In this document: one piece after another, positions 19,840 to 62,925 of the stretch
Layout: each line of letters begins with the position of its first letter
How positions within the stretch are numbered: the first letter of the stretch is position 1
DNA from: Capsaspora owczarzaki ATCC 30864
Taxonomy: Eukaryota; Opisthokonta; Filasterea
NCBI RefSeq assembly: GCF_000151315.2
Contig: NW_011887295.1
Span: 186,001 to 250,000 of the forward strand
Direction: 5' to 3'
Length of the DNA stretch: 64,000 bases
Notes under the pieces: generated by a model
Seen by the model: the letters and a program-made list of their open reading frames with translations, nothing else
What the model was told of the DNA's origin: nothing
Databases searched by the model: none
Made by a program: the position numbers and the translations under genes

Positions 19840-20937
19840 ATGGCAAGTGACCTTCGACAAACCCAACGGCGGTGGTGCGCAACGAGTTCCAACTCGCCCG
19901 TAACGCGGCGCATCCGAATTGCAATTGTGCTGCTGGTCGTGTTTGGCGTGCTCTGGTGGCTGCTTCAGATGGCGTCGAGCGACCGCTTGCACCCGATTGA
20001 GCAGAGCGAAGCCCTCTTCCACGCCGTCTACGGGACGCCAATGCCAACGCGCGATTTCCAGTGTTCCGAGTCGAGCCGCTTCCAGTACCGGCTCACAGCG
20101 TTCGCCATCTTCCGAGACGCCGACAAGTACCTCAAGGAGTGGATCGAGTTCCACAGACTGGTCGGCTTCGACCATTTTCTGATGTACAACAACAACTCGA
20201 CGGACAACTACCGCGAAGTGCTCGTTCCGTACATGCGCGCTGGACTCGTCACGCTGATAGATTTCCCGACCGTCTTGACGCACGATATCGCGGGCTATCG
20301 CATCCAGAACACGCAAAAGGTCGGCATCATTGATGGCGTGCAGCGCTTCCGTTGCCTGACGCGCTACATGGGCATCTTTGACATTGACGAGTTCTTCTTC
20401 CCAACGTCGCCCGATCAGTCGTTGCACACATTGCTGCAAAAGTTCGTGGGCAGCGGCAAATGCGGCGGGCTTGCGGCCTGGCGACTCAACTTTGGCTCCA
20501 ACAACCACACGACGACTCCGCCCGGCCTGGTCCTGGAAGAGTACACGCGTCGCAGCAATGAAGTCATCACTGGCAAGAAGGTCTTGTTCAACCCGAGGCA
20601 GATGGCCGGCCTGCACAACACCCACAGCCTGTTCTTTTACGACGGCAAACCCCTGTGCGATGAAAAGTTCCGTGAGCTCGAGTACACGACCTTCTCTGAC
20701 CACGAGGCCAAGGCCATCCGCGAGGTCGACGTTCTGCGAATCAACCACTACTATACCAAGAGCTACCAGGACTGGGACGAGCGGTTGAAGCGCGGCACCA
20801 TCAGCGGCAACAATAACGACTTTAGCTGGCAGCTGTTTTTGGAGGCCGACAACAACGAGTATCTCGACACTACCGTTGCGCGCTACCTTCCACTCTTGAG
20901 GCAAGCAATGCATGATCCAGCCTTTGTCGCCAGCTAA
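19840..20937 (+). CDS. Glycosyltransferase family 92 (DUF23) type II membrane protein
   Basis: A single exon encodes 365 residues. A short basic cytoplasmic tail is followed by one anchor (IRIAIVLLVVFGVLWWLLQM, about 26-45), so it is a type II Golgi protein. The luminal domain carries GT92/DUF23 hallmarks: EWIEFHRLVGFDHFLMYNNN, the acidic donor-binding motif FDIDEFFFP (a DxD-type site), AAWRLNFGSNNH, and the late block INHYYTKSYQDW. Characterised GT92 enzymes add beta-1,4-linked galactose to glycans or to pectic galactan. The acceptor here is unknown. The length fits a compact family member. The start at 19840 was preferred over upstream non-ATG extensions because it gives a typical short tail. 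Two T tracts lie 60-90 bases upstream. Confidence 0.9.
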   Translation: MASDLRQTQRRWCATSSNSPVTRRIRIAIVLLVVFGVLWWLLQMASSDRLHPIEQSEALFHAVYGTPMPTRDFQCSESSRFQYRLTAFAIFRDADKYLKEWIEFHRLVGFDHFLMYNNNSTDNYREVLVPYMRAGLVTLIDFPTVLTHDIAGYRIQNTQKVGIIDGVQRFRCLTRYMGIFDIDEFFFPTSPDQSLHTLLQKFVGSGKCGGLAAWRLNFGSNNHTTTPPGLVLEEYTRRSNEVITGKKVLFNPRQMAGLHNTHSLFFYDGKPLCDEKFRELEYTTFSDHEAKAIREVDVLRINHYYTKSYQDWDERLKRGTISGNNNDFSWQLFLEADNNEYLDTTVARYLPLLRQAMHDPAFVAS

Positions 20938-38959: not shown

Positions 38960-41515
38960 ATGAATCCGCTCTTTCCAATGCCGCCGCCGGGTCCGAACGG
39001 CCTCTTCCCGCTCCCGCCCGCCTTCCCTCCGCAGCAGCATCAGCATCACCAGCAGCACCAGCATCACCAGCAGATGCCAATGCACATGGGCGGCATGCCC
39101 CCAGCTGCAGCAGGCGCAGGTGGCTGGGCTCCAATCCCGTCTGCTGACTTTGCTCCACCTGGCCCAGCCATGCAGCTCGAGGGCATCCGGCCGTTCTCCA
39201 TGGGCCCGGTAACGCAACTCCTTTTTTTGCATGCTGCTTGTGGAGGATGGTGTTTCGGCGTGGCCTGGGCCTTGTTGTGCTGGATGGGATGAGAAGATCG
39301 ATGCTCCAACGTCACTCTCTCAAACCCCATCGCTCACCCTGTTTGCTGCTGCTGCTGCTGCTTGCTGCTTGCTGCTTGTGTCTTGTTCTGTCTTGCTCAC
39401 TGATTGACTGGATCAAATCGTCTCGCAGCCCGTGGCGTATGGATCGGGACGGCCAGCGCCGATCGGACCAGCTGGCTTTGGCGCTGCGCCTGCGCTGCTT
39501 GGCCAGCCGCCGCAACAGCAGCAGCAGCAACAGATGCCTGCCGCGGGTGTCTGGCACAACGCAATCACAAAGCAGTCTGTGTGGGAGAAGCCGAACGAGC
39601 TCAAGACGATCGAGGAGCGCGTGCTGGCGGATATTCCGTGGACGGAGCACCAGAACGACCAGGGCCGACCCTACTACCACAACAAGCAGACCAAGGAGAC
39701 GACGTGGACGTTGCCTGAGCAGCTCAAGGTCGCACGGGAGCGCATCGCGCAGCTCAAAGCCGAGGCGGATGCACGACCTCCTGCCGTTGTCGCCCCGATG
39801 CTGCCTCCAGTCGCTGCCGATGGGGGTCCCGCGCGTGCAGCTCACGGCGAGATGGCCCCAATGACGGGAGTCGAACCGCTGGCGACTGTCGGTGGTGGCC
39901 AGGCTCCAAACCTCGCTGCCGCCGCTGGAAGTGCTGCTGGTGGACCAACCTCCTCCGCGTCTGCTGGCGCCCTGCCCTCCCTCGACCCCTCTTTTGGTGC
40001 CTCGTCGCTGCCGGAAATTGTCGTCCCCATCTCGGAAGAAGCAAGGGCAGAGCTGCGGAAGATGCGAGAGCGCTTTTCCGCGCCGAACGCCACGGTGGAC
40101 TCGCTGGGCGTCTCCCCTGCGGATGCCAAGCGACTCTTCAAGGAAGTCCTGCGCGAGCGAGGAATTGGCTCGACGTGGACGTGGGAGAATACGCTCAAGC
40201 AGCTGACGACCGATCCGCTGCTCAATTTGCTCAAGACTCCCGGCGAACGCAAGCAGGCCTTGAACGAGTACAAGACGGTCCGTGTCAAGGAGGAGAAGGA
40301 GGAGAGCTATCGCCGCCAAAAGCTGGCACGCGCAGAGCTGCGCACCTTCTTTGAAAAGGCCCCACAGATCTCGTCTCGGCTGCACTGGCAAGACGCGGCA
40401 ACCCAGTTCCGCGATCTGCCAGTGTTCCGAGCGGTTGAAGGCGATTCCTCGCGACGCGAGGCGTTCGAGGCGGCCATGTCTGTCATCCGCGACCGCGAGC
40501 GTGAGCAAGCCCGCATCCAGCGCACCGAGTCGCTGGCGCGTGTCAGCAAGATGTACGCTGAAATCCCCAACTTTTCCTTCCGCACGCTGTGGGCCGAGGC
40601 CTACGAACACTTTCGAACGTTTGAAGACACGCTGCCCGAGAAGGACCCGATTCGACAACTGCTCAATCTGGATCTCTTGCAGTGCTTCCAGGAAGCGATT
40701 GCCGAGCACGAGAAAGAGCAAGAACAGGTGAACCGTGGTCAGCGCGATGTCATTCGTCGCGAGCAGCGCAAAATCCGCGATGGCTATCAGGTCAGTGGAA
40801 ATGTTTGAAGTTTTGTGAGAGGTTGCTCCTCGAGTGAAAACGTCCCGTTTATTCATAACGTGTGGTGGCTTTTTTTTTTTCTGTCTTTTTTTTTTTTTTT
40901 TTTTCTTGCTTCTTTGATTCCGGGTGCTTTTGCGTGTGCTGTTGTTGTAGGCTTTGCTCGACGAGCTCGAGAACATTGGCATCATTTCGGCCACCTCCAA
41001 ATGGAAGGACGTGTATTCTGCGCTGCGTGTTGAGCCACGGTTTACCGCCGTCTTGCCGTTGTCTGCAGCACCGTTCGCTTTGTCATCTTGCTCGTCTGCC
41101 TTGGATTTGTTCAAGCTTCATTTGGAGAAGCTGCAAGTGAAAGCAGAGCAAGAACGCCAGTTGGTCATTACGACGCTGAAGGTTTGTAGAACTTGAGTGG
41201 TTGATTCTTTTCTTCTTTTTTTCAAAATTTAGGTTCACGAGTGCTCAGCCCGCGATCGGATTCTAACGTACCACGACGATGAAATACTTTTGGTTTTGCA
41301 GGATTTGCGCGTGGAGATCACCGCCACATCCAGCTTCCAGGACTTTTTCACACTCGCCGCGTCGGATCCACGATTGAAGGCGTTGAGCAGCTCGAACCTC
41401 GCCTCTATTCACTCTCAGGTGAGTCGCGCAGTTGTATCGTGGCATAGTGCATGGATTGTAATGCTGATTTTGGCACAAGACTGACTTTGACTGTTGTTGT
41501 TGTTGTTGATGTTGT

Positions 41516-42594: not shown

Positions 42595-43486
42595 CTATCG
42601 GCGAGACCGGTATCGATCTCGCTCACGTTCGTGCTCGCGCTCTCGGCCTCGATCTTCGCGGTCGCGGTCGTAGGCAGAATGCCTCGATCGGGATCGATCG
42701 TACGAATCTCGACCACGGTCACGATCGCGATCCTCTCGGTGGCGATCATGGCGAGAACTGTCCCGTTTTCGGTCGTCTGGACGAGAGTGGCCTCGACCAG
42801 GACTGTTGCTTCGGTGTCGTCGCCCAGGGGATCTACTGCGGCTGCGACTGCGGCTGCGGCTGGGGCTGGGGCTACGGCTACGGCTGCGATTGCGGCTGGG
42901 GCTACGGCTTCGGCTACGACGACGACTGGAACGGAGAGCTTCGCCGCCTGCAACGGCCGAAGCTGGAGCTGACGGTTCGGACGGGTTCTCGGCTACTTTT
43001 TCAGCTGCGGGGGGCTTTTGGTGCGCGCTCACTCCTGCCGGAGATGCTTGTTGGGCGGATGGGGATTCCGATCGGGGAATGGCAGCGGCAGCTGTCGGCA
43101 TCTTCATGGAAACGTGAACAGGCAGAGGATACGAGGCCATGTTTTTGGCGCGGGCGAGCACTGTGGCAAGCCGCTGTTCGATCTCGAGGATGGGCCGCCG
43201 TTGGCGACGATATAGAGTCAACAGCAATCGGCAGATGGTGTTGATATCCTCGAGTTTCGCATCAAACGCCTCCCACCACGGGGGATTGAGTGGAAGCGCA
43301 ATGCCTTCCTTGCAGCAAGCTAGATGAATCGCGGCACATGCAATTGTTTCTGGAGAAAAGCGCACACATGCATTGGTGCGCATGCTGTCATTAATGTAAT
43401 TCCACGCGCGCTGGATGATGGAGACTGGCGGCGCGACATATACGGGAAGAAGAAGTTCTTCTTCCTGTTGTTGTTGTTGTTTCTGT

Positions 43487-43519
<33 letters not shown>

Positions 43520-44355
43520 GGTTGGTCGTGCTCGCCCTCCCTCTCGTTGGAAGACTTGTCGGCCTTGTTGTCGTCTTCTTCGGTACACATCAAATCCATT
43601 TGCAAGCCCAACGTATTCCAGTAGGTTGGAAGCAGTTTGTGCGGGTGGCGCGTTACGTGAACGCAAAATCCGAGATCCTTGAGCACCCTGCGCTCTGCCG
43701 TGATGATGGCACCCCGAGTGTCGAGGTACATTTCCGACGCGATATCAAGCGGTACCGGTCGGAAGGACGACGCGGGCGCACTAGTGCAATCTGCCGTGGC
43801 AGCAGCGATGGCTTGTGCTGTGCGCCGTAGCTTTGTCTGGAAGACGTGATGAAACACGTTGATGAGGTCTCGAATGCGTCTTGGGTTTTCCTCAATCTTG
43901 GCAGCGAGGTACAGGCACGCCATTGCGGTGACATCGTAGCGATGTCGCATGAACGACTTTTTGTAGAAGAAGCGTTGGAAGAGCTGCTGCGCGGTCGCCA
44001 TCGCCACCTGCCCAGACCAGACCAGACCAGCCCAGAGCGTCCACGACAAGATCGAGTCGACCAGGTTTGATCAAGAATCCAACAGAGACGAAGAACGGGG
44101 AGTAGGGGAAATGTTCGACAGTGAGTAGTATGACAGCAAGAGGAGCAGGCTCAAACTGTTGATCGTTACCTGAGGCAGCTTGAGGAGCACTCCGCACGTC
44201 TGGATGAGCTCGCAGCCAAGCAAGCGGAGATCCTCTTCGAGTGCAACGTCGATGCCGTCTTGCTGCGACGGAGTGTCTGCGAGCATGGATTCAGGCAGCA
44301 ACGGCGTCTCTGGCGTCAGAATCACATAGTCCTCGTTCTCAGCCAGCTCAGCCAT
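42595..44355 (-). CDS. CCNL: Cyclin L (RS-domain cyclin of splicing/transcription)
   Basis: Two exons (44170-44355 and 42595-44007) encode 532 residues. Cyclin L pairs with CDK11 (and CDK12-like kinases) and acts in pre-mRNA splicing and transcription in nuclear speckles. The cyclin box begins in exon 1 (LLGCELIQTCGVLLKLPQ) and continues with VAMATAQQLFQRFFYKKSFM, DVTAMACLYLAAKIEENPRR and IRDLINVFHHVF. The second fold carries SIIQRAWNYINDSMRTNACV and IACAAIHLACC. A Gln run (about 12 plus 5) interrupts the region between the folds. The tail is an RS/RD domain (SRSRSRSRSPGRRHRSNSPG), as in animal and plant cyclin L. Its neighbour PRP40 also ends in an RS domain and also serves splicing. Confidence 0.93.
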
Positions 44356-44706: not shown

Positions 44707-46441
44707 ATGCTGCAATTGCCTGCGTCGCTCGCTCGAGTCGTCGCGCCGACGGTGAGTCGCATTGTGCACATTGCGCGACCCACATTCAGCGCGATGGACA
44801 CGCTTGACATGCAAGCACTCGTCTCGGCAAAGAAGGCCAGCAAGATTGCCGCTGCCGGGGCGAGGTTGCCGCCGCCCGCCAGCGTCATGCGGGAGCTCCA
44901 AGAGGACAGGTCGCCATTCAAACTGCCGCGGGATCCTCAAGTGACGGCGGCGACCACGAAGACGACAATGATGGGAGAGCAGCAGGCAGGCGGGAACTCG
45001 CCAAGACACGAAACAATGGCAAGGGCAACGAATGGTACGACTACTACAACTACTACTTCTACTCGTACCAGCAACCCATCTCAAGCTCCAACGGCGACGT
45101 CAAGTAGCGCGACGACATGGGAAGAGTCATCCGCGGATCGGGCAATTCTGGACTACAATTGGATGCAGGATCAGCTCGCAGAGTCGTTTGGAAAATATGA
45201 AAAGGACACGGGTCGTGCTCTGGACTTGCCAACGTCATTGGGTGCAAGCACGACTGTGCAGCTCATGGAGAACGAATGGATGAGGAATGCGCTGGCGGAA
45301 GTATACGCAACGGACACGGACGAGTCCAGGGTGTGCTACCGCGGATCGGTTCGATTTGGTGGCGCAACTGGCCGGACAAGTGCTCGGTTTTATGCCTTTC
45401 CAATCGGACAAAACCCAAACGGAGCAACAGAAGCTTGCATGATTGCAATGCCGTCAGTATCGACTGTGCTCTCTGCCGTAACTACCAAGTCTGTCGGCCT
45501 TCTCTCGACGGAAGCCAGGCTGTCGACCGATGCCATGATGCGAGGCACCTGGGTGCATGAGGTAGGTCATTGTGAACACTTTGGGCTTGATTTGGGAAGA
45601 CGTTGAGAGATTTGTTTTGAGGGATTTGTTTTGAGGGATGTGTGGTGAGGGAAATTCACTTTTCGCTCCTCGCGGTCGATTTTTTTGTGTGTGTGTTTGG
45701 CTTGTGTGTATTGTGCGTGTGGGTGGGTTGCATCGCCTATAGGCCCTCGAAAATCGTGTCCGAGCGCTCTTCCCAAACATGCAGCCGTCCAGACAAATGT
45801 TCAACCTAAAGGAGCCTTGCAAAACTAACGTGGAGAACGTCCAGTTTGTGCCAGAGAAACGATCGCACGACCTCAGGTCACCACCGGCCGACACCCAGCT
45901 AGAGGTTGATTCTATGGTCGCTCGAATATGGAGCGAGATTGGTGATCGAATTTCCGATGTCAGTTTCGCCGAAACGGTCGTCGTCCATCCGACATTGGGG
46001 TACGCCGGTACCATCGACTGCGTCGCCAAAGTTGACGGCCAGTGGACCATCGTTGATTGGAAAACATTCGGGGAAGACATGTCGCGCTCTCAAGAACGAT
46101 ACACTTATCAAGTCGCCGCGTACCTGGATGCCTTCAACAACGACCCGTACTTTCGCCGCTTGGGCCATCCGCCAGCAACTCGGTGCATCGTTGCCGGCGC
46201 CAGCAACACTGGCTATATCGAGGTCAATGTGACATTAGCTGAGGCGACTGCGGCAATGGCCAACGTTCGCACCAAAGCCACGACCTTCCTTCGCTATTTC
46301 AATGAGGTTGCACACAGCTCTCCCGGCAAACTCGCCCAGTCCACAACCACCTTCAGAATAGCCTTGAATGGAGATTCCGAAGCCACCCCAGCTCCCGCCA
46401 CCTCACGCCGCAGCAGCAGCAGCTCGTTCTGGCTCCCGTAA
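44707..46441 (+). CDS. MGME1: Mitochondrial genome maintenance exonuclease 1 (PD-(D/E)XK nuclease)
   Basis: Two exons (44707-45561, 45743-46441) encode 517 residues. MGME1 is a single-strand DNA exonuclease that processes flaps in mitochondrial DNA replication. The conserved core starts with PSVSTVLSAVTTKS and RGTWVHEALENRVRALFP. The nuclease motif is GYAGTIDCVAKVDGQWTIVD followed by WKT, so the catalytic Asp (GTID), Asp and Lys (VDWK) are all present. YTYQVAAYLDAFN matches the QxxxY helix of the family. The N-terminus (MLQLPASLARVVAPTVSRIV) is basic and amphipathic, as in a mitochondrial targeting peptide. An in-frame ATG at 44581 is an alternative start, but its leader is Cys-rich and less targeting-like. 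A low-complexity Thr/Ser insert (about 110-140) makes it longer than the roughly 344-residue human protein. Confidence 0.88.
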
Positions 46442-46745: not shown

Positions 46746-49700
46746 ATGGCAAGCAGTGGCCCTGCGGCTGGGCTTGCTGCGCTGGCGGCGACGTCCGCGG
46801 ATCGCGCTGTGCGAGCGTACGAGCTGCTCGCCCCGAACGGCGCAACATACACGGACTCTGCGACGATCGTCTCCGCCGCAGTCACTGGCATTGCGCCGGG
46901 CGGAGGTCCTCGTGGTGCAACTGGCCCAAACCCAGCCGGAGCGAGCGTCGCCCGGTCGCAGTCCGACCAACGCAAACGCAGGTAAAGCCGCCAAACTTCC
47001 GAGAAAGAGATGGCTCAAGTGCTCAGACACCCGACCCCAATCTGCTTGGATCCATGTCGGAAATAGCATGGTTGAGTCGGAGGCGGGGTGTGTTTGTGCT
47101 TTCGTTTCAATGTTGATTTCTAACGACACTTTGTGATCTTGACGACTTCTGCTTGTTCAGTTCGGGTTTCTTTGAAGCAGCTCGAAATGTTGTCAAGTCG
47201 TCCAGCTCGGCATCGTCGTCGTCGTCGTCGTCGTCGTCGTCATCGTCATCGTCATCGGCAAGCACGACCCAGACTCAAGCTCAAGCATCCGCTAGTAGGA
47301 CTCGCGCAGAACGGGCTGCTGCTTGCAAGACGCTCTGCGAACTCGCCATCGCGGCACCTCAGAAAGCTCCGAACGATTTCCCAAAGATTCTCGCAGTTGC
47401 TGTCGCAGGTATTGACATCTGTGGTTGATGTCATTTGTGCCAATACGGATGTTGCGTCTGTTTCTCACTGTTTACTGCACATTCGATGGCTGGCTGCTTC
47501 AGGTCTCATGCATGGTTTGAATGATGCGGAAACGGATGTGCGCACAGCCGCCGATGAAAGTTTGAATCGCATCATCAAGTCGGTGATGGACTTTCACCTT
47601 GCTCGCGTTCAGGTAGCTTTGTCTCTCTCCCCCCCCCCGCCTCTCCCCTCACAAACGTTCTCGCGTTTTCTGGTGCTCACTCTGATGAGCTCTCTTTCTG
47701 CATTTCGTATAGGTGGAAATCTTCAAGGAGGTCAAGAATTTCAACGCCCCATCTCGGTCACTACGCACCGCCCTCACAAAGTTTGCCGACCTCGCGCATC
47801 TCATCAAGCCCTCCAAGCACAAAATGTTTGTGACTTCGCTGTTGCCAGCGCTGACGCGTGTGATCCAGCGCAACGATGAGGCCGTTCAGGAAACGCTGGC
47901 CGCTTGCATTCAAAAGCTGCTGTTTGTGTTTGCGCCCCATCTCGCTCAGGCAGACATGTCGGCATTGGTAGAGCTGTTCATGTACAGCATTGGCGGCCCT
48001 TCCTCTGTCATTCGACGCACTGCAGCAATTTCGATCGCCTGTCTGTGTCGCAACGCCAAAAGCCCCGGCGCCCTCATTCACGACACCGTCAAGGCCCTGC
48101 TAGACTTTCCATTCAAACCTCGCGTTTCCGCCAACGCACCGGCTGTCGACGATGCGATTGGCTTGCCGAACCGAATTCTGGGACTCCTGCTCGGTTTGCG
48201 GTATGTGCTGACCGTGGCTGCCGACATTAATGTCGCTGCAGACGCGCTGCGTGGCGGCCTGGGCCCGCGGTTGACTGCGCTGATTCTCGCCTGCCTCGTG
48301 CACCCCAACCATAATATCGTCACGTCCACGCTGGAACTGTTGCAGACATTGCTTCGAATCACACCGCACGACATGTTTGGAGCCGTCTTTTTCGCTGCTG
48401 GGAGCAACCCGCTTGTGCCGCCGCCCACCGAATCAGCCAAGAGCGCCCCCGTGTCTGCGAGCGAGTCCTCCGCTGGCCCCACGACCACCACCGGTGAAGT
48501 TCGAGTTGTTGGACTGCCTGCCTTGCTGAAGATTGTCTGCCGAATTTGCTCCTTCCTCATTGGCGACCCGGCCACTCTCAAGCCCATCCGAATCTCTGTG
48601 CGCTCGCTGGCCCTGTCCGCTTTGGCCCAGGTGGTTCTTGTCGATCCGTCTGTGTTTTACACGCGGCTTTCTGTCCAAACATTGCCACTGCCGTTGCCCA
48701 AAGGCGCCGCCCCTGCACCTCCCGCATCGCCCGCTCCGGAGGCGGGTGCGTCCGAGCTGACCCACGACTGCTACGTGTACCAGGTGCTCTGCTATCTGAC
48801 CCATAGCGACCCGTTGCTCCGCGGTCATGTGTGTCTCATCTTGGGCTCCTTTATCAGCTCGACGCTGCGCCAGGGCGGTTTTGTCATTGCTCATAGCTTT
48901 GGGCTCGTCACCCTTCCCACTCCGACACCGGAAAATGAGGAACGATATGCAGCCGATCCTGCATTGCGCGCGTCGCACCAACGCAAGTACCTCCTGCAGC
49001 AAGAACTCAAGCAGCAGCAACAAGAGCCGCAGCTCCAGCGAATGCTTGCATCTGGAGCGCACCATGCTGCGCTCGCGTCTCTCTTGCATGACACTTTTCC
49101 GCGGCCGACATTCCGCTCGTTGTGCGATTTGCTCGTCTTGTTGCTGAGCGACGCATCCTCGACCGTTCGCCGCCTCGCATGCAGCGCCATTGACCAATGT
49201 CTTCCGTCAATCCTGTCATGCTCGGCCGGCGTCATTGGCTTGGACATGCTGCACGCGGTCTGTGCTCTTCGGAACGATGCGTACTGGTTGGTCAAGGTGG
49301 ACTTGATCTCGGTTCTCGCCAGCCTCGACTGGAAGGTTGTCGCATGCCTCGAGGACAAGATCAAAGACATGCACCACTTGTCCGAGACAACACCGGGCGC
49401 CAGGGCTGGCGAATCGGTGGCTGGTATCGACACCCAGGCCGACGGTAACAGCGTGGACACGCCATATTTGCTGGCCCTCGGTGTGCGCGCCAAGTATCCT
49501 GGCCTGCCAAACTACCAAGCTGACGCACTCGATGTTGTCGTCTCGCTGTTGGGAGACGATGATGGGCGCGTGCGCGATCACGCCGCGTCGCAGCTGGCAC
49601 GGATGACCCCGCACCTCTTCTTCCGCGCTGACTGGCCAAACCAGACCCCTGTGGATGCCTTGATGCACACAGATGCTATTCGCTACGTCAGCTTGGTGTC

Positions 49701-52700
49701 GGTCGAAGATGTGAGTGCCGCCGAGCTCATGTCCTGGCCGCAGCTCTCATTCGCCTCCAACGCCCCGAGTAGCAGCGGGTCAAGCGGTGGCGGCGGCGCT
49801 GGTGCTGGTGGCGGTGGCGCAGCTGGAGGAGGCGCCAATAGCGGAGGCACGGGAGGAAGCGGTGCCACTGGCGTCAACTCTGGAGCCGCCTTCCCTTCCT
49901 CGTCGCCGTTTGCCAACCCATCTGTGCTTTCCTCCCTGTCGAGCGCACCGGCTGGCCATTTCCCTGCAGACCACACATACGCGGGAGCTCGTGCAAACTT
50001 GACCCGTGTGATGCGCATGTTGGTTGAGCGGCTCGTCGCAGCGCCTTCCCGGCACATGCTGACCGGTCTGTACGTTGCCTTCCGTTGCTTTGCAGCGCAG
50101 CACGGAAACGCGTCGTTGGCCGATTGGCTGTCTCTTGCGCCAGGTGTCGCTCGAGCCCCCGAGACCACTCGGTCAATCACTGACTGCATTGGCGACACTG
50201 TGCCGTTGGCCTTGGATCACCTCTCGACATCGTGGATTGGACTCGAGTTGTCTGCGCACGCTGACGTGCTGTACGTCATTGCGAATCTCATCCGCGATGC
50301 CGACATGGTTGCCATCGCACCCTTTTGGCAAGCCATCCTCGTGCACTCGCTGCGCATCATCAACATGGCTGCGCACGTCATCCGGGGCGTGCCTGCGTCT
50401 TCCTTCTCGGCCCCTGACTCGCTCAAGGTCAAGGAAAAAGAGCGCGACAAGGAGGAGAAGCGAGAGCGCAAAGACAAGGAAAAGCAAGCCAAGCGGAAGG
50501 AAAGCTTGCGCGAGACGGCCTTGCACCACTCGGCAACCGCAGTGTCAAACTCTGACGCGACTCAACCATCGTCTGCAGTTCCAAGCACGCCTCCTCGCGT
50601 TCCGTACGCTGTTGGCGGCACGGCCTCGCCTCATCACATCCCGACCCCAGATCTGGGCAACTCACCCATGCAGCCTGTCACTGGGGCCCATCGCCACGCC
50701 AATGTTCACTTGCAGAGTGCAGTGATGCAGTCGCGGTTTCAACAACAGATGGCCCAAGAGCAGGAAGCGCAAGGCTTGCCCGCCAGCGGTCCACCTAAGC
50801 TGCAACACGGGCAGCAAGCTCAACAGCATCAGCAGCAGCAGCATCAACAACAACAGCAACACCTACCGCAACAACAACAACAACATCAACAACAGTTCTT
50901 GTCGGGTGCTCTCGGCGACTTTGCACATGTTGATCAATGCCTGCGCTTGTACGAAACAATGTACAGCACCTTTGAGACGTCGCTGGTCACGCTGGACCTC
51001 AGCGCGCCGAACAAGTTTACGCAAATCACTTGCGCTGCCCTGGAAACGCTTGCCGTGTTGGTTCGCGTGGTGGGCCGCGACCACGCTGCCGCGTACGCGG
51101 AAGAAATCATTCAGTATCTCGAAACGGTCATCACCGTCGAGCCTGCCGCCGTGCTGCTCTGCGTCCACGAGCTGCTGTGGTGTCTCTTTGGCGCAGACAC
51201 GGCCAAGGTGCGGCCCATTCCCTCTCTGTTTGTCGGCTCTGAATCTGCGCTCGTGGCGCAGCTGAATGAGCCAGCCACCGTCACACTCGACCCTAGGTCT
51301 GTGTTTTGCACCGTGTTTGAACTTCCAACCAAGGTTTTGAGCCAGTCGCTGGACGTTGCCCCTCCGCAGCGCCCAACGATCGCGTCCTCCACGCCCTCGG
51401 TGGCAGCCACGGCTGCCACTTCAACAACCAAGGTCCGAACGACCTCCAGAGTCAATCTGGTGCACGCAACGCACAATGCGGCGCTCGATGCTGCCACGTC
51501 TGCTGCGCCAACAGGAGCGGCCAAGCCTGCACCACACACTGGCAGGCCATTGTCAGCCATGCTCAACACGGCGGTGGCGGCCTCCACGGCGTCTCTGTCA
51601 GTGGGGTCGTCTCTCTCCCGACGCGGCTCGTCTGTCGGCGCTGATTCTGCACCAGCTTCCCCGAGCGTGAGTCGAAACTCGTCGTTCAATACCGGAACAT
51701 CCAGCGCGTTGTCTTCGCACGGAGCTGGTGCGAGCATCTTTGACGGACCTCCGTCATTTTTGGCAAAAACCCACGCGACTGGATCGTCCAGCACGGTGGC
51801 AGCTGCCATGTCGCCCATTTCAGTCGCGCGAATTGCGCTTCCCGTCGCCGGCACTGCCATTCCCTTGACCTATGGCCAGCAGCTGCCCATCCGCCCGCCT
51901 GCCAAAGTTGAAAAGAGCGCCATTCAAGGGCTGGTCCGCTTGTTTGAGCCCCTTGTCCTGACCGCCATGAATCAGTACTGGAGCACAAGCTCCGTCCCGC
52001 TGCAGCAAAGCATCCTGTTCCTGCTTTGTCAATTGGTCGAACTCCGGGTCAATTACTCCCTTCTCGACAACGACAATGCGTTTATTCTGTTCATTCTGAA
52101 GCAGTTTGACCACATGTTGGCCGGCCGGTTGCGTGACGCCGAGTCTCTGCTGCCGTTCATTTTCCAATTCTTCCTGCTGCTGTCGCGCGACCAACCCTCT
52201 CTTCGCGACGTGATGGACATGAACAAGCTGATGACCCTTGTCGAGCGGAGCACGGCTTGTGATTTCCTCGACCTCGACCGCGCCCTGCTTGCAGTGCAGC
52301 CTCTCGTCCAAGAGCTCTTCTTGTCGCCAGGCGCTATTCGCTATGCGCACCAACAAGAGCAAGAGCGGCAACGAAATATGGCGCACACGGATGGCACGTC
52401 AGCCCCGTCCTCCTCCTCCTCCTCCTCCGTTGGTCAGCAGGGCCCCGCTCAGCAGCGTTCGAGAAAAGAGGCAGATTGGCTCGTCCATCGCGAAAGCCTG
52501 TTGCGACTGCTGCTTCGTCATGCAACCCGCACTCCGGCATTGCGCATGCTGACGCTGATTCTCCGCGCGCTGCGATCGTGCGACCTTGATCGCTACGCCC
52601 GTGTCTCCAAGTCCATCATGGAGACGCTCCTGCCACCGTTGGCTCAGGGCAAGCTTCAGCTCGGCAAGCAAGCGCACCTTGTCAACTTTTGCAACCTCAT

Positions 52701-55700
52701 TGATACCATTTCGCCCACCGCGTTGAGGCCCGCGGCCTTGCTCCTGCGAGGGCTTTTCAATGTCGTGTCGCTGAGCAATCCGCTTTTGCAGCAGTCCTCA
52801 ACGCCAGCCGCCTCGACAGAGTCGCCGATCGCAAGCACGCTTCCTGGCCATCTGGATGCAACGTCGTCCGCGACCGCCCCAGTCCATTCAGGGCATGGTG
52901 CGTCTGCTTCCCAGTCCGTTCTTACCTGGATTCCGCCAATTCTCGGCCTGCTGCGCGCCATATGTCGTGCAGTGAGCTCTTCGACCTTGCAGCCGTTCGC
53001 CCTCGAGCAACTGGATGTGACTCGCTACGCCAAATCCTTCTTGTCGTCGAGCCCCGAGACTGCCACAACGGAAGACGTGCTGGTTGTCATGGTTTTCGAT
53101 GTGATTGGGCGCGTGGCTGGCCAGCTTGCGTCCGAATTGATTGTGTCTCGATCCTCATGCTGGCTGCTTGGCCAGTTGCTGCAGTACACGCTGTTCTTGC
53201 TCACAACGTCCGCGATTGCCCCGCAGCTCCAGCGCTCGCTGCGGCATCTCGACCCGCAGTGGGTCTACATGGTCCACGGATTGATCTGCAGGCAAGGGCG
53301 ACATGAGCCGATCGTTGTGCTGCACTGGTTCCAGCTGATGGTTGTTTGTGGCTGGACCAACGCCGACGACCAGGGTGGCTTCTCGCTGGCCGCCTGGGAG
53401 TGGGTCTGCGGTACCGACGCCAATGCGGTGGCCGAGATTGTAAACGCCTCGGAGAGCGTACTCCATCGTGCAGCCTTCCGCTTCTGGTACTCGCGGATGG
53501 CCTCCGTCCTTCAAAGCCACCAGGTACTGCGAAATCACCAAGAGTCATCTGGCGCTGCTGCCGTTTGGCAGGCGTCAGCCACCCACAGTCACGAGCAGCA
53601 GCTCTCGGTCTCTCTGGTGCAGTCGCAGCTCGGCCAAATTGTGTCCTCGTCTGCTTGGTGTCGCGAGCTTGTGCGCTTTTCCGACATGCCCGAGGTCAAG
53701 GTCATCCTGGCTGCCGTCCGAGAAAGCGCGTGGCTCTCTGTCACTTTTGTCAAGTCGCTTGCAGACACCACTGGCTCGTTCTCTGAGGCTGTGATTGCAG
53801 CTGTCGGCGTGGCTCAGACGAATCACTCTGCGTGGAGCAAATCAAATCCGTTTGCCGAGCTGGCCGCAGCCGAGGCGGATGCCGTGGCCAAGGCTGCTGC
53901 CGATGCCAGCGCCGCAACAAAGCGCTGGCCGCTGCACATGACCTGCAGCCTCCGCGATCTGCGCATGTACATTGACTGTCTTTCGCAACTCAAGCCCAGC
54001 GTTGAGCTGGCAGTCTTTGTGATTGATCAACTGGCCGCTTCGCACCATCCCTACCTGCGCACTCGATGCGCGCGTCTCCTTGAAGAGGTTGTCAAGACAG
54101 TGCGCGCAACCCGTTCTGTTGGCGATGCAGACTATCTGCAGCTTGTTGGCCTGGTCCATGACAAACTGCTGCGTGCCATGCAGCGCTCGCAGATGGTGGC
54201 CACATCTTACGCGTCGGTTCAAGGCCAGTTGGCCTCAATGTCCGCGTCGGCAACTGCAAACGGCACCCCGCCCCAGGTCTCTCCGCTCCAACAGTCGCCC
54301 TCTTCTGATACTCGCGCCAGGAGCGTTTCGGTACTCACCGCGTCGACCATTCCAGTGGACTTGCCGCTGGCAATTTCCGATCTCGATCGTGACCAGTTTG
54401 CCGAGCTCGTCCGGTGCATTACCTCGCTTCCGCCCGCTGTGGGACCCAGCGACCGTGTCGTGCCAAACACGCTTCACCGTGTTGTCACCTTGCCGCTGGC
54501 CTCGCCTCGCACCGCTTGTCTGGCGCTGTCAGAGCTTGACTATGCCACGTTGCTTGCGCTCATGCAACACCCTCAGTTCCGCACCGAGCTGCTTGCCGAA
54601 TGCATGCTGGTTGGAGCTGATTCCGTCATGAGTCGCTTTGCAGCGATGGACATGGGCTTTAACGAGTGGAGCGACTTGACGGCAACCGAAAATGCCTCGC
54701 AGCTCTTCCGTAGCGATCTGCTGCTTGCAGCGATGGACGCCACGTTGCTCTTGATTGATCGGGTCGTGCAAAAGCTGCTCGCCGATTCCGTCGAGTCCGA
54801 CTCGCACGTGGCATCTGCTGTCGCTCTTGCGGAGAGCGAGACGCAGTGGTCGCATCTTGTCGACCTATGCCAAGCCGCCACCAACGTTGTGCAGCATGCC
54901 CTACCCGTGCTGACACCGTCCACGTTGCCCACTCCGCCCTTGCGGCCGCTGTCTCCGGCACAAGCTCAGTCGCTTGGCATATTTGGAACGATTGTTCTCG
55001 ATGTGCTTGTGGAACGCTTGCGACGAGGGCTCGCCTCTCCTGGCCAGGCCACCATCCTTATCGAGTGTCACAGTACACTTTTGCGGCATCCCTCAGTGCT
55101 GGCCTTCCTTGCCTCGCATGAAGCGGCGCGTTGGGCTGCTGCTTCCATGGATGCCGCCTATCTCTTGTACCACGCCTTGCTGCGGCAGGAGCGTGTCCCA
55201 TCGCGAACCCATCCGCTCCTAATTGCCTCCGCGCCGCCGTCCATCGCAAAAGTGTCGACGTTCACCCCGCCCTCGAGCTCTGTGTCAGCAACCGCACCCG
55301 AGGGTCTGTTGAGCGCGCCGAACGAAGTCAACGCAACGCCCTCACCCACCTACCCAGTGCCGCTTTCCAGTGCCACATCCTCGTCGAACTTTATCGCAAA
55401 CCAGCCATTGCAGCGGATGGCCCAACTCGTGTCGCTTTTGAGCAGCGCCTTGGAAATTCCACCCGTGATTCGCCACGGCAACGGCATTCCTGAATTGCAC
55501 AAGCGTGTCTTGCAGCCAGTGTTTGTGCTGCAGTCCTTCCGCGAGCTTGTGATGCGTTTGGCTCGCGTCGACTTGCCCATGATCCACGCGCAGTGCCTGG
55601 CCCTCACCCAGCGGCGACCGATGGATGGCGGCGATGGCGACGATGACGACGACATGTACAGCATTATGGATGGTGGCGTCGCCATTCCCCGAACCATTCT

Positions 55701-58568
55701 TGACACGGAGTTTTTGGAAGACTTTGACGTCCTGTTTAGCTTCTTGGAGCGTGTGGCCGCCTTGGGCTGGACGTCCCAGCGGCAGTATGAAGAGGCGTGG
55801 GCGTCCCTGCTCAGTGTGCTGGGCTCCAGTCTACCGGACGAAGAGATGAGCGCTGAGGCTGAGGTACTGCTGCGGGGGCGGATGGCGGGGGTTCGTGGGG
55901 TTTGCGGGAAAGGCTGTTCATTGCTGATAGCGAATATCTCAGAAAAATTGTTTGTTTGACATTTGCTCACTCATCACCAACCCGGATTTCTTGTTTCCTT
56001 TGATTCCAACAGAGAGAAGGCGTCTTCACGACGTGTGTCGCCATTCGCGGCTTGACAACCATTCTGCTGCAAACTGCAACTCAGCCAACGCCGGGAGATC
56101 CTTTGGGTGTTGTCAAGCACATTCGCCGTGATCGCAACATGCCGTGGCTCCGCACCAAGGCTGGACGGAAGCTCCTTTTGGCGCGCAACTTGATGGACAG
56201 CGACGCTCAGTGGCATCCGCTGCGCGAGAGTGCCACCTCTGTGCCCTTCCCAGTCAAGCCTCTGGCCGTGCTGGTCGACATGAATGCATCTGCCTTCCAT
56301 AGCAATACGGAGCGTGTTCCAGGTGGCTTTGGCTCTGGTGCGTTAGGACTGTACTCGGGCCAGATTGCTGCGAGCGTGCTTCGCGCCCGCTTCCACCGGA
56401 CTGCTTCGTCTGCAGCCGCTGCTGTCGCAGGTGTCGGTCAGCACCCCAGTGGACCTGACGGAGTGCGAAGCGGCTATGTTGCGGGTAGCAGCGTGGCGTA
56501 CGCAGTGGACGCGCAGATGACCTGGCCCGTTCCGGCGTGGCGTCCGTCCGAGTTTAACATTGACGCAGCGCGCGCCGGTGACAAGCCCATTGATTTGTCA
56601 TCGTACATGCGGATTATTCTGGAATTGTTCGGACACCGCATGCGGGGCGGTCCTGGTCGCTCGCTGCTTGTACTTAGCGAGGTGGTCAAGGCTGTTTTGC
56701 TCCTCAGCGACCTGTTCACGACGCGAAGCCAGTGGGAGTGGATGCTCAACACGTTTGTCGAGTTTCACCAGTTGCATCCCGCTGAAGATGTCATTGTCTT
56801 GCAGCACGTGGTGGTTGGTATTTGCAAAGCGTTGGCAGTCTTGCGCGTGCCTTGGCTGCCTTCAGCAACCGTTCCACTGTCGTCTGCTGCCGGCGGTGCC
56901 AGCGGAGTGAGCAGTACCCCTGGTGGATCTTCAACCTTGTTGAACGTGCCTGGCGCGCAGAGCTCGTCGGGACTATCACGTTCTGCCAGCAGCGTGTCGA
57001 CCCGCAGCATCAGCAGCGCGGCCACTGATGCCTCGTTGCTTTCGCGCACGCCTTCGTTGGCATCCAATCACAGTGCTGGTTCTGGTCGCTCCGTCTCAGC
57101 CGGCAACTACACGCCTCAGCAGCAGCAGCAGCAGCAGCAAGATTTGGCCCACATTCATCTCGACACCGTTGTGCGCATCGTTACGGATGCACTCGCATCA
57201 TCCCACGTTTGCATGCATATGGCAGCGCTGAACGGCGTGCTCTACTTGCTCGAGGCCCGTGTGCGTCCGATTGTCGTCGCCCTCATCCCCATCCTGTTTG
57301 AATACTTGCTGAGTGCGCTTGCACGCTCGATCGTTCCGCGCCACCAGCTGCTCATCATCTCGTGCATTGTCGCAATGAACGAGCAGGCGTCCAAAGAGTG
57401 CGAGGACAATGATTTCGTGACGCACAGTGTCACGGCGTTGCTCACCATTGCGATTGACGACGCGCACAAGTCAGACGTGGTCTTTGCTGCGGCCGTGAAT
57501 GGCCTTGAGCGTCTGTTTGTCTCGTACAAGCTGGGTGTCAAGGTGCGTGAGACGATTGCAACGCTCTGCGCGGACAAGTCCAACAGCAGCATGTTTTCGC
57601 GAGCCCAGCATGCGCTATTTGCAACACTGGCGGCCATGTATGTCGGAACCGACAAGAGCAGCACTGTCATTGGTGACTATGGGTCTGACAGCAACGACCG
57701 AGCCCCCGAGGTCGAGGTCTCGGAACCCGAGGAAGAACAGCTGCCCTCCATTCAGGTCATGGAGCGTGTGTCTGGATTCCTCTCAAAGATTCGCAAGGGC
57801 TTCCGTCACGAAGCGCGCGTCGTGTCGCGTGTTGTGCCCGTCCTGCTGATTGACTTTTTGCCAACCCAGCAAATCATCTCCACGGTCATGGGCGAGTTCC
57901 TCAGCAACCAGCAAGCCCATCCCGAGCTCCTTGCGGGCATTGTCTTTTCAGTGTTTTACCAGCTGCAGCTGCGGCGCCAGTACGACAGTGTCAAGAACTG
58001 GGTGCTTCTGTCGCTGCACAGCTTTACGCAAAAGGAGCCCCAGTCCCGCGCCCTCTGGAGCCTGACCTGTCTGTTTATCAGCGTTTCTCAGAACAAGTGG
58101 ATTCGTGCGCTGTACGGGAATTGGGATGGGTTTTTTTCTTTGTGTGTGCGGAATGTCTTCGTGTTTGTTTACTTTTTGCTTTGGTTGTTTGATCACACAG
58201 GTACCCGCTCGTTGTGAGTCGACCGGGCTTGGTAGACCACGATGATTTGCGCTTCTTTTACTCTGCCGCCCTGGACTTTTATCTTCATCAGGTGAGTCTT
58301 GTCGTCTCGGTGTCTGTCTGCGTTGTTTGTTGAAGACTTTGTTTTTTTGACAAATGTGGCGGCTCACAAGCACTGCGTTCTTGCTTTGTTCGTCCCCGCT
58401 GTACCCTCCTCCTCCTCCTCCTCCTCCTCCTCCTCTTCTCAGGATCTCATTCCTTCCGAAAAGGCCCGATTCATGTCCGTGTTTGCGTCGTTCAAGGGCT
58501 CCTCGCCCTACGAGCATCTCGTTCAGCTTTGCCAGCAGCAAGAGGCCTCTCCTTCCCCCGCGCTATAA
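46746..58568 (+). CDS. HTT: Huntingtin orthologue
   Basis: Seven exons (46746-46981, 47161-47408, 47503-47612, 47713-55863, 56013-58111, 58201-58291, 58443-58568) encode 3,686 residues; human huntingtin has 3,144. Huntingtin is a HEAT-repeat scaffold for vesicle transport, autophagy and cytoskeletal links, bound by HAP40 in animals. The N-terminal HEAT region matches human HTT closely: DAETDVRTAADESLNRIIKS, RSLRTALTKFADLAHLIKPS, EAVQETLAAC, SSVIRRTAAISIACLCRNA and HNIVTSTLELLQTLLRITP. The C-terminus also matches: YPLVVSRPGLVDHDDLRFFY, ALDFYLHQ and FASFKGSSPYEHLVQLC. Exon 2 begins with a short amphipathic segment (FFEAARNVVKS) followed by a run of about 15 Ser coded by TCG/TCA, where animals have polyGln. 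Extra length comes from a Gly-rich insert (about residue 880-920), a charged KEKERDKEEKRERK segment and Gln/His runs (about 1207-1262). Exon 4 alone is 8,151 bases. Confidence 0.93.
47205..47257 (+). repeat. TCG/TCA codon repeat (polySer) in huntingtin exon 2
   Basis: Nine TCG codons, then alternating TCA and TCG, giving about 15 Ser after an initial SSSSA. It sits between the putative N17-like helix and the first HEAT repeat. Confidence 0.95.
50818..50895 (+). repeat. Gln/His codon-repeat region in huntingtin exon 4
   Basis: CAG, CAA and CAT codons alternate to give HQQQQHQQQQQH and similar runs, interrupted by Leu-Pro. It lies in a linker between HEAT segments, far from the N-terminus. Confidence 0.9.
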
Positions 58569-58857: not shown

Positions 58858-61800
58858 ATGGGCGACGACGGCGCTGGCGATGGCGATGGCGATGGGATGG
58901 ACGCCTTCCATGCGACTGACGTCGATGGCAGCGATGCCGTGTCGAACGCCGAACTCGTCCGCCGTCGGGCTCGAGCTGCGGCCACCCGCGATGGCAATGA
59001 TAGTGATAGCGACAGTGACGATAGTGATGATGATAATGATGATGGCAACAGCGGCGGCGGCGGCGGCGGCGGGGGGCTCAAGGACTTGACACCGTTGCAG
59101 CAGCAGCAGCCACACCCGCCATCCCTCCGCCAGCCCCATCCACATCAGCCACTTTACCACCAGCAGCAGCAGTCACTCCAGAGCCAGCCATCGCATCAGC
59201 AGGCACACCGTGGGCTGCAGCACCAGCAGCACCTGTCGCACTCGCTGCATCGCCTGAACGCAGTCCAATCGACCGACTCCTCCTCTGGCTCTGGCGCAGC
59301 GAGCCCGGCGTTCTTCACCACTGCTGCAGGCGGCTCGCCAACGCAACAACAGCAGCAACTGGTGCGACGACTCTCGCAATTGTCGCAAGTCGCCGTCGAG
59401 CCACTGTCGTCCATGGTATCGTCGTCGCAGCCAATGACGCAGACGCTGCCGCCCTTCACACTCAACCTCAGCCACCACAGCTCGCCCGTGCTTCAGCCTC
59501 AGCCGAGCATTGCAGTGCCAGTGCCACCACTCGGAGACCCTGCTGCTGCTACTGCTACTACTGCTGCTCTTCCTCCGCCCGCACTTGCGACAACGATGGC
59601 TGCTGCTTCGGCAATACCGCCGACAACGACCGCAGCGCTCGTCCACGCACAGCAGTCCGTCCAGGTCCAGGAATCCAGTCCACGAGCAACGATAGGACAT
59701 GTCTTTACGCACATTGTTGCGCGAGATGACTCGTCGGACGACGACGACGACGGCGAGGATCCATTCCAACTTGGGCTGCCAACGAGGACGAACGAACAGA
59801 ACAAGAACAAGAACAAGAACAACAACATGTCGCGACCAGTGCGCACGCTGCAGACTGCTGCAAGCGCCTCTGGTTTAGAACCAACAACCGCAGCTGAGGC
59901 TCATCGCATGAATGCAGCTGCATCAACAGCTACAGCCACAGCTGCTGGTGCGTCGGAGCCTCTGCGGGTCCCTCAGAGCGTCGACACTGTCGTTTCAGGT
60001 GCGGAGGATGACGACGCTCAGTCGCTGATTGGGAAGGAAATCAAGCCACGCCCAAGAAGCATCTTCCTCAAGAACATTGCCGCGCATAGCACGTCGCATG
60101 TCGACATGCCACCGCCGCCAAGTGCAACGTCTCAAGGGGGCGGCGGGTTTTTCAGCTCTCTGCGCACCCCAAAGCCAGGCGTGTCGTCGATGGACGGGGG
60201 AACCAACCAGTCCAGCCCGGGATTTTTGAGCTCACTCTTTCGAAAGTCCGTCGCCCAGCAAGACGAGGTTGTCGCCCCAAAGCTCGATGGCGAGAGTCGG
60301 AGCGTCACGTTTGCCGCTGCCCCGACGCAGATGAACACGATTCTAGAAGAGGCTGGCAATGCGACTGAAGCGGCCGCCGCTGCTGCTGCTGCTGCTGCTG
60401 CTGCTGCCTCGACGACCACCATCACACCTTCCGAGTCTTTCGTCTCGTTGACTTCAGTCGAATCCGCTGCGTCTGGCCAGAATGAGGCCACTCTGAAATC
60501 TACTTTGGATGCAATTGCACAGGATGTGCAAGTCCCTCCGCCAACAGAATTTGACTGGGAAACGGACATGTCCGGCTCTGCCCCTACCAAGAGAAATCGT
60601 GGACGCTGCACGCTTCCGCCCTGGGGTTTCCGTGTCTTGTTTTGGATTGCGCTGGCAATCGTTCTTATCATTCCGGGCGTCGTTTGCTACGAGTACTTCC
60701 CATCCGCCTCCGTCGCGGGCGCAAAAGTGTACGCCTGGGTGCTGTTCTTTGCGATTGTCGCCGTCACCTATCTTGGGTCGTTGCTGCTCCTGACTGGCGT
60801 GTCCGCGGTGGTGGAGCACATTTTCCTCTTGCGCTCCAATTTTCTCTACTTTTACAATGCCATCATCTTCCCAGTCCACATGTTCTTGTGGTCCACCATC
60901 GTGCTCATTGCCTGGGAAACCCTCTTCCGCTCGTCCTGGGCGAGCAATTATGGAACCGATTTCGATCGTGACAAGCTGTGGTTTGTCACACGCATTCTCG
61001 TTGCGTTCATGGTGTCGGCGGTTGCGTTTTGTCTCAAGGTCATTCTGATCAAGCGACTGGCCTTCCACTTCCACAAGGAGGCCTATTTTGAGCGTATTCA
61101 GGATGCGCTCTTCTCCGAGTATGCGCTTCAAGCCTTGAGCGAGAAGGAAAAATACGCCAAGCCCATCAGCGAGGAGGAGACACACTCACCTGCACCATTC
61201 ACGCGAGAGCCCTCCACTCTCACACTGAACAATGGTGACGACGATTGGCAAAGCGGACCTCGCATTTCGCTGAAAGGCTGGCGAACCCCAGGCAGCCGCG
61301 GGACGAGCGCGCTTTCGCTGTTTCGACGGCATACTGCAAAGAATGTCCACCAAACGTTGCCGTCCGAGGACCGAATTGGACTCGTCGACCCTGCTGGGAC
61401 GGCAGCATGCGCGGAACCCGACGAGGCGGAAGCTCAACACCACGCCAAGGCAAATCCGTCGGGCTCGCCTGTCGATAATGGAGATGCAGAGCACATCATG
61501 ATGCCCACCATCAAGCCTGCCCCACCACCACCGCCACCTGCCAGTCAAGTCACGAGCAATGGAGCTGCTCCAACCGACTGCGATCATTCATCGACGCTCA
61601 TCAAGTCGAGCAGCTCGAGCTCCAACATGCCTGCCTCGCCATCCGTCACCAAGGTGCGACAAGACAGCATTGCAGGCCGCCTGACCTCGATGAAGCCCAA
61701 GCAAGTCAACACGCACGTGCTGGACAAGTTGGTGCGCTTCGTGCGCAAGAACAAGATTCAACTGACTCCAATCCACGAACGCATCGGCAACTCGTCTGAA

Positions 61801-62805
61801 ATCAAGTCAAGCAACGAAGCCCGCCGTTTGGCCAAGGCGCTCTTCAACCACGTAAAGTCTCCCGAGCTCGACTACCTCACGTTGGATGATTTCCAGTGCA
61901 TTTTGAAGCCGGACATGGCAGTGCGCGCCTTCAAGCTGTTCGATCACGACATGGACGGCAAAATCACCAAAGCAGAAGCCAAAGAGACAGTCTTGAACAT
62001 TTACAAGGAGCGCAAGGCTCTGGCTGCCGGTCTGTCCGACGCCAAGACGGCCGTGCGCAAGCTCGATAACGTCTTTACGGTGCTGCTGTGCTTTATTCTC
62101 TTGTTTGTGTGGCTCGCCATCCTCGGCGTCGACGTCACCAACTTTTTCCTGACGCTGTCCACCTTCTTGCTCGCCTTCACCTTTGTGTTTGGAAACTCTG
62201 TCAAGGAGCTGTACGAGTCGGTGGTCTTTTTGTTTGTCAACCATCCGTTCGACGTTCAAGACCGCGTCTTTTTCAACAATGAGAATTGCTTTGTGACGGA
62301 AATCCACCTGATGAACACTGTCTTTACGCGCTGGGACGGAATGGTGATTTCCTATCCCAACGCCGTGTTGAACAAGCTGCCGATTCAAAATGCTCGTCGG
62401 TCGACCGACATGCTCGAGGTAATTGACCTGCAAATCCACGTCTCGACCCCGGCCGCCAAGATTGAGGAGATGCAAACGCGCTTTGCCACCTATCTGCGCG
62501 AAACTGCTGCAGACTGGTATGCGCTGCCCGTCATCTTTTCCGTCGTTGAGCTCGAAAACACCAATCGTCTCAAGCTGTCTCTTGGTGGCAAGACACGCTT
62601 CTCGTGGCAAGACGGTGGCGCCCGTGCCAAACGAAAGACGGATCTGATCATGTTCATGAAACGCGTTTGCGAGGAGCTTGACATTCACTACTATCAGCCC
62701 GAAAGTCTGCTACATGCGCGAGTTCACTCCCAGGCACCGATGTCACAGCAACCCTCGTTTGAGCAATGGCAGCAGTACCAGCAGTTCCTCCAATGGCAGC
62801 AGTTC

Positions 62806-62836
<31 letters not shown>

Positions 62837-62925
62837 CGGTGGGCCCGCAGCCACCCATGGGAATGGCGCCTTTCGCCTCAGCCGGAGGTCAGCAATTTGA
62901 CTTTGCTCCCGAACCCAAGTGGTGA
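58858..62925 (+). CDS. EF-hand MscS-type mechanosensitive channel
   Basis: A single exon encodes 1,355 residues. The first 570 residues are low complexity (acidic, Gln, Ala, Ser runs). Four hydrophobic spans follow at about 585-740 (WGFRVLFWIALAIVLIIPGV; VYAWVLFFAIVAVTYLGSLL; YNAIIFPVHMFLWSTIVLIA; ILVAFMVSAVAFCLKVILI). A cytoplasmic linker and a canonical EF-hand loop (DHDMDGKITKAE, about 1029-1040) come next. The MscS core follows: NVFTVLLCFILLFVWLAILG, then the pore-helix region LSTFLLAFTFVFGNSVKELY and the beta domain HPFDVQDRVFFNNE. This order (four spans, EF-hand, MscS) matches the fungal Msy1/Msy2 organisation, ER channels that help cells survive hypo-osmotic swelling and control calcium. 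The C-terminus is Gln-rich. The start at 58858 opens an acidic leader and is the first ATG after the T tract. Confidence 0.92.

Follow-up and report, generated by a model that had tools for sequence, protein, structure and literature searches.

Does the long, seven-exon gene found in the window (the whole stretch of Capsaspora owczarzaki DNA that was analysed, 64,000 nucleotides) encode a true orthologue of animal huntingtin (HTT), or a HEAT-repeat protein of some other kind, and what might such a protein do in a single-celled organism? The normal role of huntingtin is still debated (Myre et al. 2011, PMC3084204). C. owczarzaki, a single-celled relative of animals, has both huntingtin and its partner HAP40, and the disruption of genes in it has been published (PMC9170242); it is therefore well suited to studying the function of the two proteins before nervous systems existed. 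On the evidence set out below, the gene is identified as the huntingtin orthologue of C. owczarzaki, apparently present in a single copy, with a probability of about 0.96.

The gene model extends over positions 46746-58568 of the forward strand (Table 1), and its exons splice to 11,061 nt, corresponding to 3,686 codons and a stop codon, with no internal stop in any of the 3,686 codons. All six introns begin with GT and end with AG, and they range from 89 to 179 bp in length. When the splicing was recomputed, both the coordinates and the length of 3,686 amino acids given in an earlier note on this DNA proved to be exact. That note had also placed blocks from the two ends of huntingtin on one gene, and this is borne out at the level of predicted exons: all of the blocks that it quoted are in frame in a single collinear model, with DAETDVRTAADESLNRIIKS at residues 169-188 (exon 3), ALDFYLHQ at residues 3638-3645 (exon 6) and SSPYEHLVQL at residues 3665-3674 (exon 7). 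Because the alignment to human HTT starts at residue 122, neither exon 1, nor the exon 1/2 junction, nor the start codon has homology support, and exon 1 and the start codon are predicted only from an uninterrupted reading frame followed by an intron of the GT-AG type.

Table 1. Exons and coding repeat of the predicted huntingtin gene (positions in the window; residue numbers are those of the spliced product)
Feature	Position	Strand	Remarks
Huntingtin exon 1	46746..46981	+	Predicted start codon at 46746; residues 1-78 and 2 further nt; open frame, GT donor at 46982
Huntingtin exon 2	47161..47408	+	Amphipathic stretch 80-92; serine run 97-111 (TCG repeat); huntingtin homology begins
Huntingtin exon 3	47503..47612	+	DAETDVRTAADESLNRIIKS; start of N-HEAT; Htt_N-HEAT_1 at residues 163-314
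Huntingtin exon 4	47713..55863	+	2,717 codons covering N-HEAT, a bridge region that was not recognised and the beginning of C-HEAT
Q/H-rich coding repeat in exon 4	50821..50894	+	Within product residues 1203-1262 (29 Q in 60)
Huntingtin exon 5	56013..58111	+	C-HEAT; 699 complete codons and 2 nt; 8 Q at residues 3284-3291
Huntingtin exon 6	58201..58291	+	ALDFYLHQ; human HTT alignment crosses both of its junctions
Huntingtin exon 7 and stop codon	58443..58568	+	SSPYEHLVQL

The identity of the product is carried by profile and sequence searches. Three huntingtin HEAT families of Pfam are matched above their cut-offs, and they occur in order along the product: Htt_N-HEAT_1 in the first 400 residues (172.9 bits against a cut-off of 31.2, E = 7.5e-51), Htt_N-HEAT in exon 4 (274.4 bits against 26.2, E = 3.2e-81) and Htt_C-HEAT in exon 5 (232.9 bits against 25.3, E = 8e-69). 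Exon 4 additionally matches Htt_N-HEAT_1 (114.8 bits) and positions 336-385 of the Htt_C-HEAT profile. Searches of the PDB with phmmer are consistent with these assignments. With exon 4 as the query and a threshold of E ≤ 1, 18 matches were returned, the top ten of which are all huntingtin, nine of them at E 1.4e-74 or better and the tenth (8sah, C-HEAT only) at 1.6e-5; the other eight stand at E 0.024 or worse. Huntingtin likewise accounts for all ten matches of exon 5 at E ≤ 1 and, at E ≤ 0.001, for nine of nine with the first 400 residues and ten of ten with the last 186, whilst human HTT itself is matched at E = 6.6e-91 by exon 4 and at E = 1.4e-66 by exon 5. The aligned stretches of exon 4 are collinear with the human chain 6ez8_A from position 164 to 1654 and then at 2423-2473, and those of exon 5 continue to 3067. 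Some stretches are weak when taken singly (among those listed, 702-790 at E 0.5 and 995-1103 at E 2.4), and two of the 11 listed for exon 4 have negative scores, namely 1129-1169 and an out-of-order glutamine stretch that falls on the human polyglutamine at 17-35. The earlier statement that the two ends match animal huntingtin ‘block by block’ is fair, but between the ends the bridge and several loops are without detectable alignment.

Two other readings of the locus have to be weighed against orthology. A generic HEAT/ARM scaffold, such as GCN1, a CLASP/TOG protein, tubulin chaperone D or Furry, might resemble huntingtin through its repeats only, and the first 400 residues do give weak matches to GCN1_N, ARM_TBCD_2nd, CLASP_N and ARM_LIN_2nd (E 1.2e-4 to 8.4e-3), the first of which is weakly matched by exon 4 too. 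All of these families nevertheless fall below their curated cut-offs (GCN1_N, for example, reaches 22.3 bits against 26.3), whereas the huntingtin families score 173-274 bits; every PDB match of the last 186 residues at E ≤ 0.001 is a huntingtin chain, and no Furry family appears among the matches of this general Pfam search. A generic HEAT protein is therefore rejected as a candidate, GCN1_N, HEAT, HEAT_2, ARM_TBCD_2nd, CLASP_N and ARM_LIN_2nd all lying below their cut-offs, and its probability is close to nil. The earlier proposal of true orthology is upheld by this Pfam check, in which Htt_N-HEAT_1, Htt_N-HEAT and Htt_C-HEAT all exceed their cut-offs; no other HEAT family in Pfam outscored them, the comparison running one way, from the Capsaspora product.

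The other reading is that the model joins what are really two neighbouring genes, or that it describes a gene in decay. In its favour, the exon 4/5 junction (intron 55864-56012) is spanned by no single alignment, and the neighbouring match of exon 5 is weak (E 2.3). Against this, the end of exon 4 and the start of exon 5 both lie inside one C-HEAT domain: the exon 4 match ends at position 386 of 8sah and the exon 5 match starts at 409, so that the two are separated by 19 residues in the product and by 22 in 8sah, with the exon 5 side of this comparison being the weak match just mentioned. Four of the six exon junctions are aligned directly to human huntingtin and hold both frame and homology, the N-terminal alignment (residues 122-381) crossing the 2/3 and 3/4 junctions and the C-terminal alignment (positions 3-173 within the final 186 residues) crossing the 5/6 and 6/7 junctions, and the whole reading frame is uninterrupted. 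A fused or decayed locus is accordingly judged very improbable, although slightly less so than a generic HEAT protein. With regard to copy number, a profile search of the genome (27,456,641 bases) returned three stretches for Htt_N-HEAT and three for Htt_C-HEAT, all six at the huntingtin locus, and no second huntingtin locus was found in the 27.5-Mb genome (Htt_N-HEAT at E ≤ 0.001, Htt_C-HEAT at E ≤ 1) by this search, which scored only the best candidates and which a very diverged second copy could escape.

The arms of the protein are recognisable, and the bridge between them was not recognised by the searches used. No Pfam match to the bridge was obtained at E ≤ 10 with the slices 52600-55863 and 52600-54300, and phmmer with the slice 52600-54999 returned, at E ≤ 10, only two unrelated kinase sequences (E 1.6). 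Across the whole genome, the bridge profile PF20925 finds nothing at E ≤ 10; it is also silent in 14 of 14 control genomes, so this silence does not show that the bridge is absent. For a segment of 426 residues from exon 4, AlphaFold2 run on the single sequence gave mostly helices, at low confidence (mean pLDDT 52.6). Judged by its sequence, the product would most likely form a large α-solenoid of HEAT repeats in which N-HEAT and C-HEAT arms are joined by a divergent bridge.

The N-terminus differs in its low-complexity content. No run of five or more glutamines is found near the N-terminus of the protein; residues 97-111 form a 15-residue serine run encoded by a TCG repeat. An N-terminal polyglutamine is a trait of the human protein and not a requirement of the family, the Dictyostelium tract being at position 533. 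Further tracts lie within the body of the protein: a Gly/Ser-rich insert at residues 880-930, the Q-rich segment at 1203-1262, which falls between the segments matched to positions 1103 and 1220 of 6ez8, and the run of eight glutamines in exon 5. The hydrophobic moment of SGFFEAARNVVKS is the highest among 150 windows of 13 residues and is matched by 175 of 10,000 shuffles. That of human N17 is matched by 1,031 of 10,000; the hydrophobic moment therefore separates little, and no homology to N17 is claimed. It is doubtful, but conceivable, that the N-terminus keeps the layout of animal exon 1, with an amphipathic helix (residues 80-92) followed by a serine homopolymer and then by the HEAT arm. 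If this were true, the module of helix and low-complexity tract would be older than animals, with polyglutamine being one later filling, and, taken with a conserved HAP40 and a bridge altered so far that it is no longer recognisable, it would make Capsaspora a test of which parts of huntingtin are ancient.

The earlier note had proposed a search for a homologue of HAP40 (F8A1) in the same genome, and one is present. The human HAP40 protein (the query being identical to 6ez8_B at 371 of 371 residues) gave four weak hits in the genome, at E 9.6e-4, 6.5e-3, 0.01 and 2.98, three of which are collinear exons on contig C7 and one of which lies on contig C11. By reading C7:1305000-1310000, a model of ten exons encoding 315 amino acids was built (G000:C7:1306489-1308327; L017 1490-3328), with introns of 74-146 bp that are all GT..AG. 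Residues 5-306 of the predicted protein are identical to human HAP40 at 125 of 341 aligned positions (37%; BLASTP 139 bits), and the Smith-Waterman score of the model against human HAP40 is 469, whereas none of 500 shuffles scored above 68. In the PDB, human HAP40 is the best match (3.1e-49), whilst 13 entries other than HAP40 stand at E 0.14 or worse, γ-SNAP among them at 0.9. In the human complex, the HAP40 acids E316, E317, E331 and D333 contact the HTT bridge (Seefelder et al. 2020, PMC7725122); three of these four are kept in Capsaspora, where E, E and D stand opposite E316, E317 and D333, and A stands opposite E331. Unlike its human counterpart, Capsaspora HAP40 is without the proline-rich insert, which has been described as found only in mammals (PMC7725122).

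Stretches of the SNAP family were also encountered elsewhere in the genome and were not taken as HAP40: five on contig C2 (best E 6.9e-44), presumably α-SNAP, and one on contig C12 (E 4e-6), read as γ-SNAP from its frames. Human HAP40 itself scores 23.1 bits against the SNAP family, below the cut-off of 25. On contig C11, a weak HAP40-like match (G000:C11:405724-406023, reverse strand; L015) shows 38% identity over query residues 182-277, at E 0.01, and contains one stop.

What the pair may do in Capsaspora can be approached through homology, with the human HTT-HAP40 complex as a guide. HAP40 has been suggested to coordinate the domains of HTT, the bridge of which carries a basic patch facing HAP40, and work cited in the same paper has HAP40 recruiting HTT and RAB5 to early endosomes (PMC7725122). 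In Dictyostelium, where huntingtin has been described, deleted and phenotyped, its loss disturbs the actin cytoskeleton, adhesion and osmotic defence (Myre et al. 2011, PMC3084204). It is because of this recruitment to endosomes and these defects that a HAP40-bound scaffold with a trafficking and cytoskeletal role is considered the most likely function, and a reasonably probable one: the two HEAT arms would close around HAP40, a TPR protein whose gene lies elsewhere in the genome, and the stable scaffold so formed would in turn link endosome or vesicle membranes to the transport and cytoskeletal machinery. If its bridge has diverged, huntingtin might instead act without HAP40 in the Capsaspora lineage, for example mainly as a scaffold in osmotic stress and for actin. 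The failure of PF20925, the Pfam slices and the phmmer slice to recognise the bridge would fit such a role, as would the osmotic, actin and adhesion defects of the Dictyostelium hd-null cells; the HAP40 gene, however, has been kept, with similarity over nearly its full length, and HTT and HAP40 have been reported together in all organisms examined except two parabasalids with HAP40 only (PMC7725122). A role free of HAP40 is for these reasons thought unlikely, and the HAP40-bound scaffold is preferred. No functional study of Capsaspora huntingtin was found in the literature pairing huntingtin with Capsaspora or Filasterea, although one may exist.

Several other genes were noted in the window. 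A frame with WW and FF domains, PRPF40-like by reading, lies at 39432-40808 on the forward strand and ends about 6 kb upstream of huntingtin. Human PRPF40A is the huntingtin interactor HYPA, and the proximity of the PRPF40-like frame to huntingtin is probably a coincidence. A frame resembling PD-(D/E)XK nucleases (45779-46441, forward strand) lies about 300 bases upstream of huntingtin, and a mechanosensitive channel of the MscS type (58858-62925, forward strand), in which EF-hand scores are just below the cut-offs, lies directly downstream. Further away are a protein with a cyclin box and an arginine/serine-rich tail, cyclin-L-like by reading (42595-44049, reverse strand), a member of the aquaporin (MIP) family (8083-8973, reverse strand) and a family-92 glycosyltransferase (19750-20937, forward strand).

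Primers published for C. owczarzaki (PMC9170242) were compared with the assembly. The forward and reverse GAPDH primers both match exactly, on opposite strands and 532 bases apart from end to end. A reading frame of 376 residues, actin by reading of its translation, has exact matches to the actin terminator primer on one side and to the actin promoter primer on the other, and one more 20-mer matches exactly in the DNA separating the frame from the promoter primer. A 90-base coYki homology arm, and a 20-base coYki primer for which up to two mismatches were allowed, have no match. On balance, these results point to C. owczarzaki or a very close strain, and a different filasterean near to Capsaspora is unlikely.

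The presence of huntingtin and HAP40 in Capsaspora is real, and it is already known. Both were reported in this species by Seefelder et al. (2020, PMC7725122), who name HTT in the filasterean C. owczarzaki, in choanoflagellates, in ichthyosporeans and in amoebozoans, list potential homologues in Naegleria and Guillardia, and describe the co-occurrence of HTT and HAP40 in unikonts. The suggestion that this gene has a new bearing on when huntingtin arose is consequently not sustained, the occurrence of huntingtin in Capsaspora and in other protists being already in print (PMC7725122; PMC3084204). What is added here to the published presence of the two genes is the exon structure of huntingtin, the positions of its low-complexity tracts and a gene model for HAP40 in which three of the four contact acids are retained.

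Compared with known systems, the protein described here belongs to the same family and the same species as the Capsaspora HTT of Seefelder et al. (2020); passages of that paper on HTT and HAP40 do not describe the Capsaspora exons or low-complexity tracts, both of which are given here. Like the human protein in its complex with HAP40 (PDB 6ez8, 8sah and others), Capsaspora huntingtin has collinear N-HEAT and C-HEAT arms, and its C-terminal alignment extends as far as position 3127 of chain 6ez8_A, which has 3138. Unlike human HTT, it is longer, it has a serine run in place of the N-terminal polyglutamine, it carries extra Gly-, Ser- and Gln-rich inserts, and its bridge is unrecognisable by the searches used. 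The hd gene of Dictyostelium discoideum, compared here by its published description (PMC3084204), likewise encodes a protist huntingtin as a single gene of few exons (four, against seven in Capsaspora) and with polyglutamine that is not N-terminal; its product is 3,095 amino acids long, against 3,686 in Capsaspora, and the polyglutamine at 533 is a tract of 19 residues.
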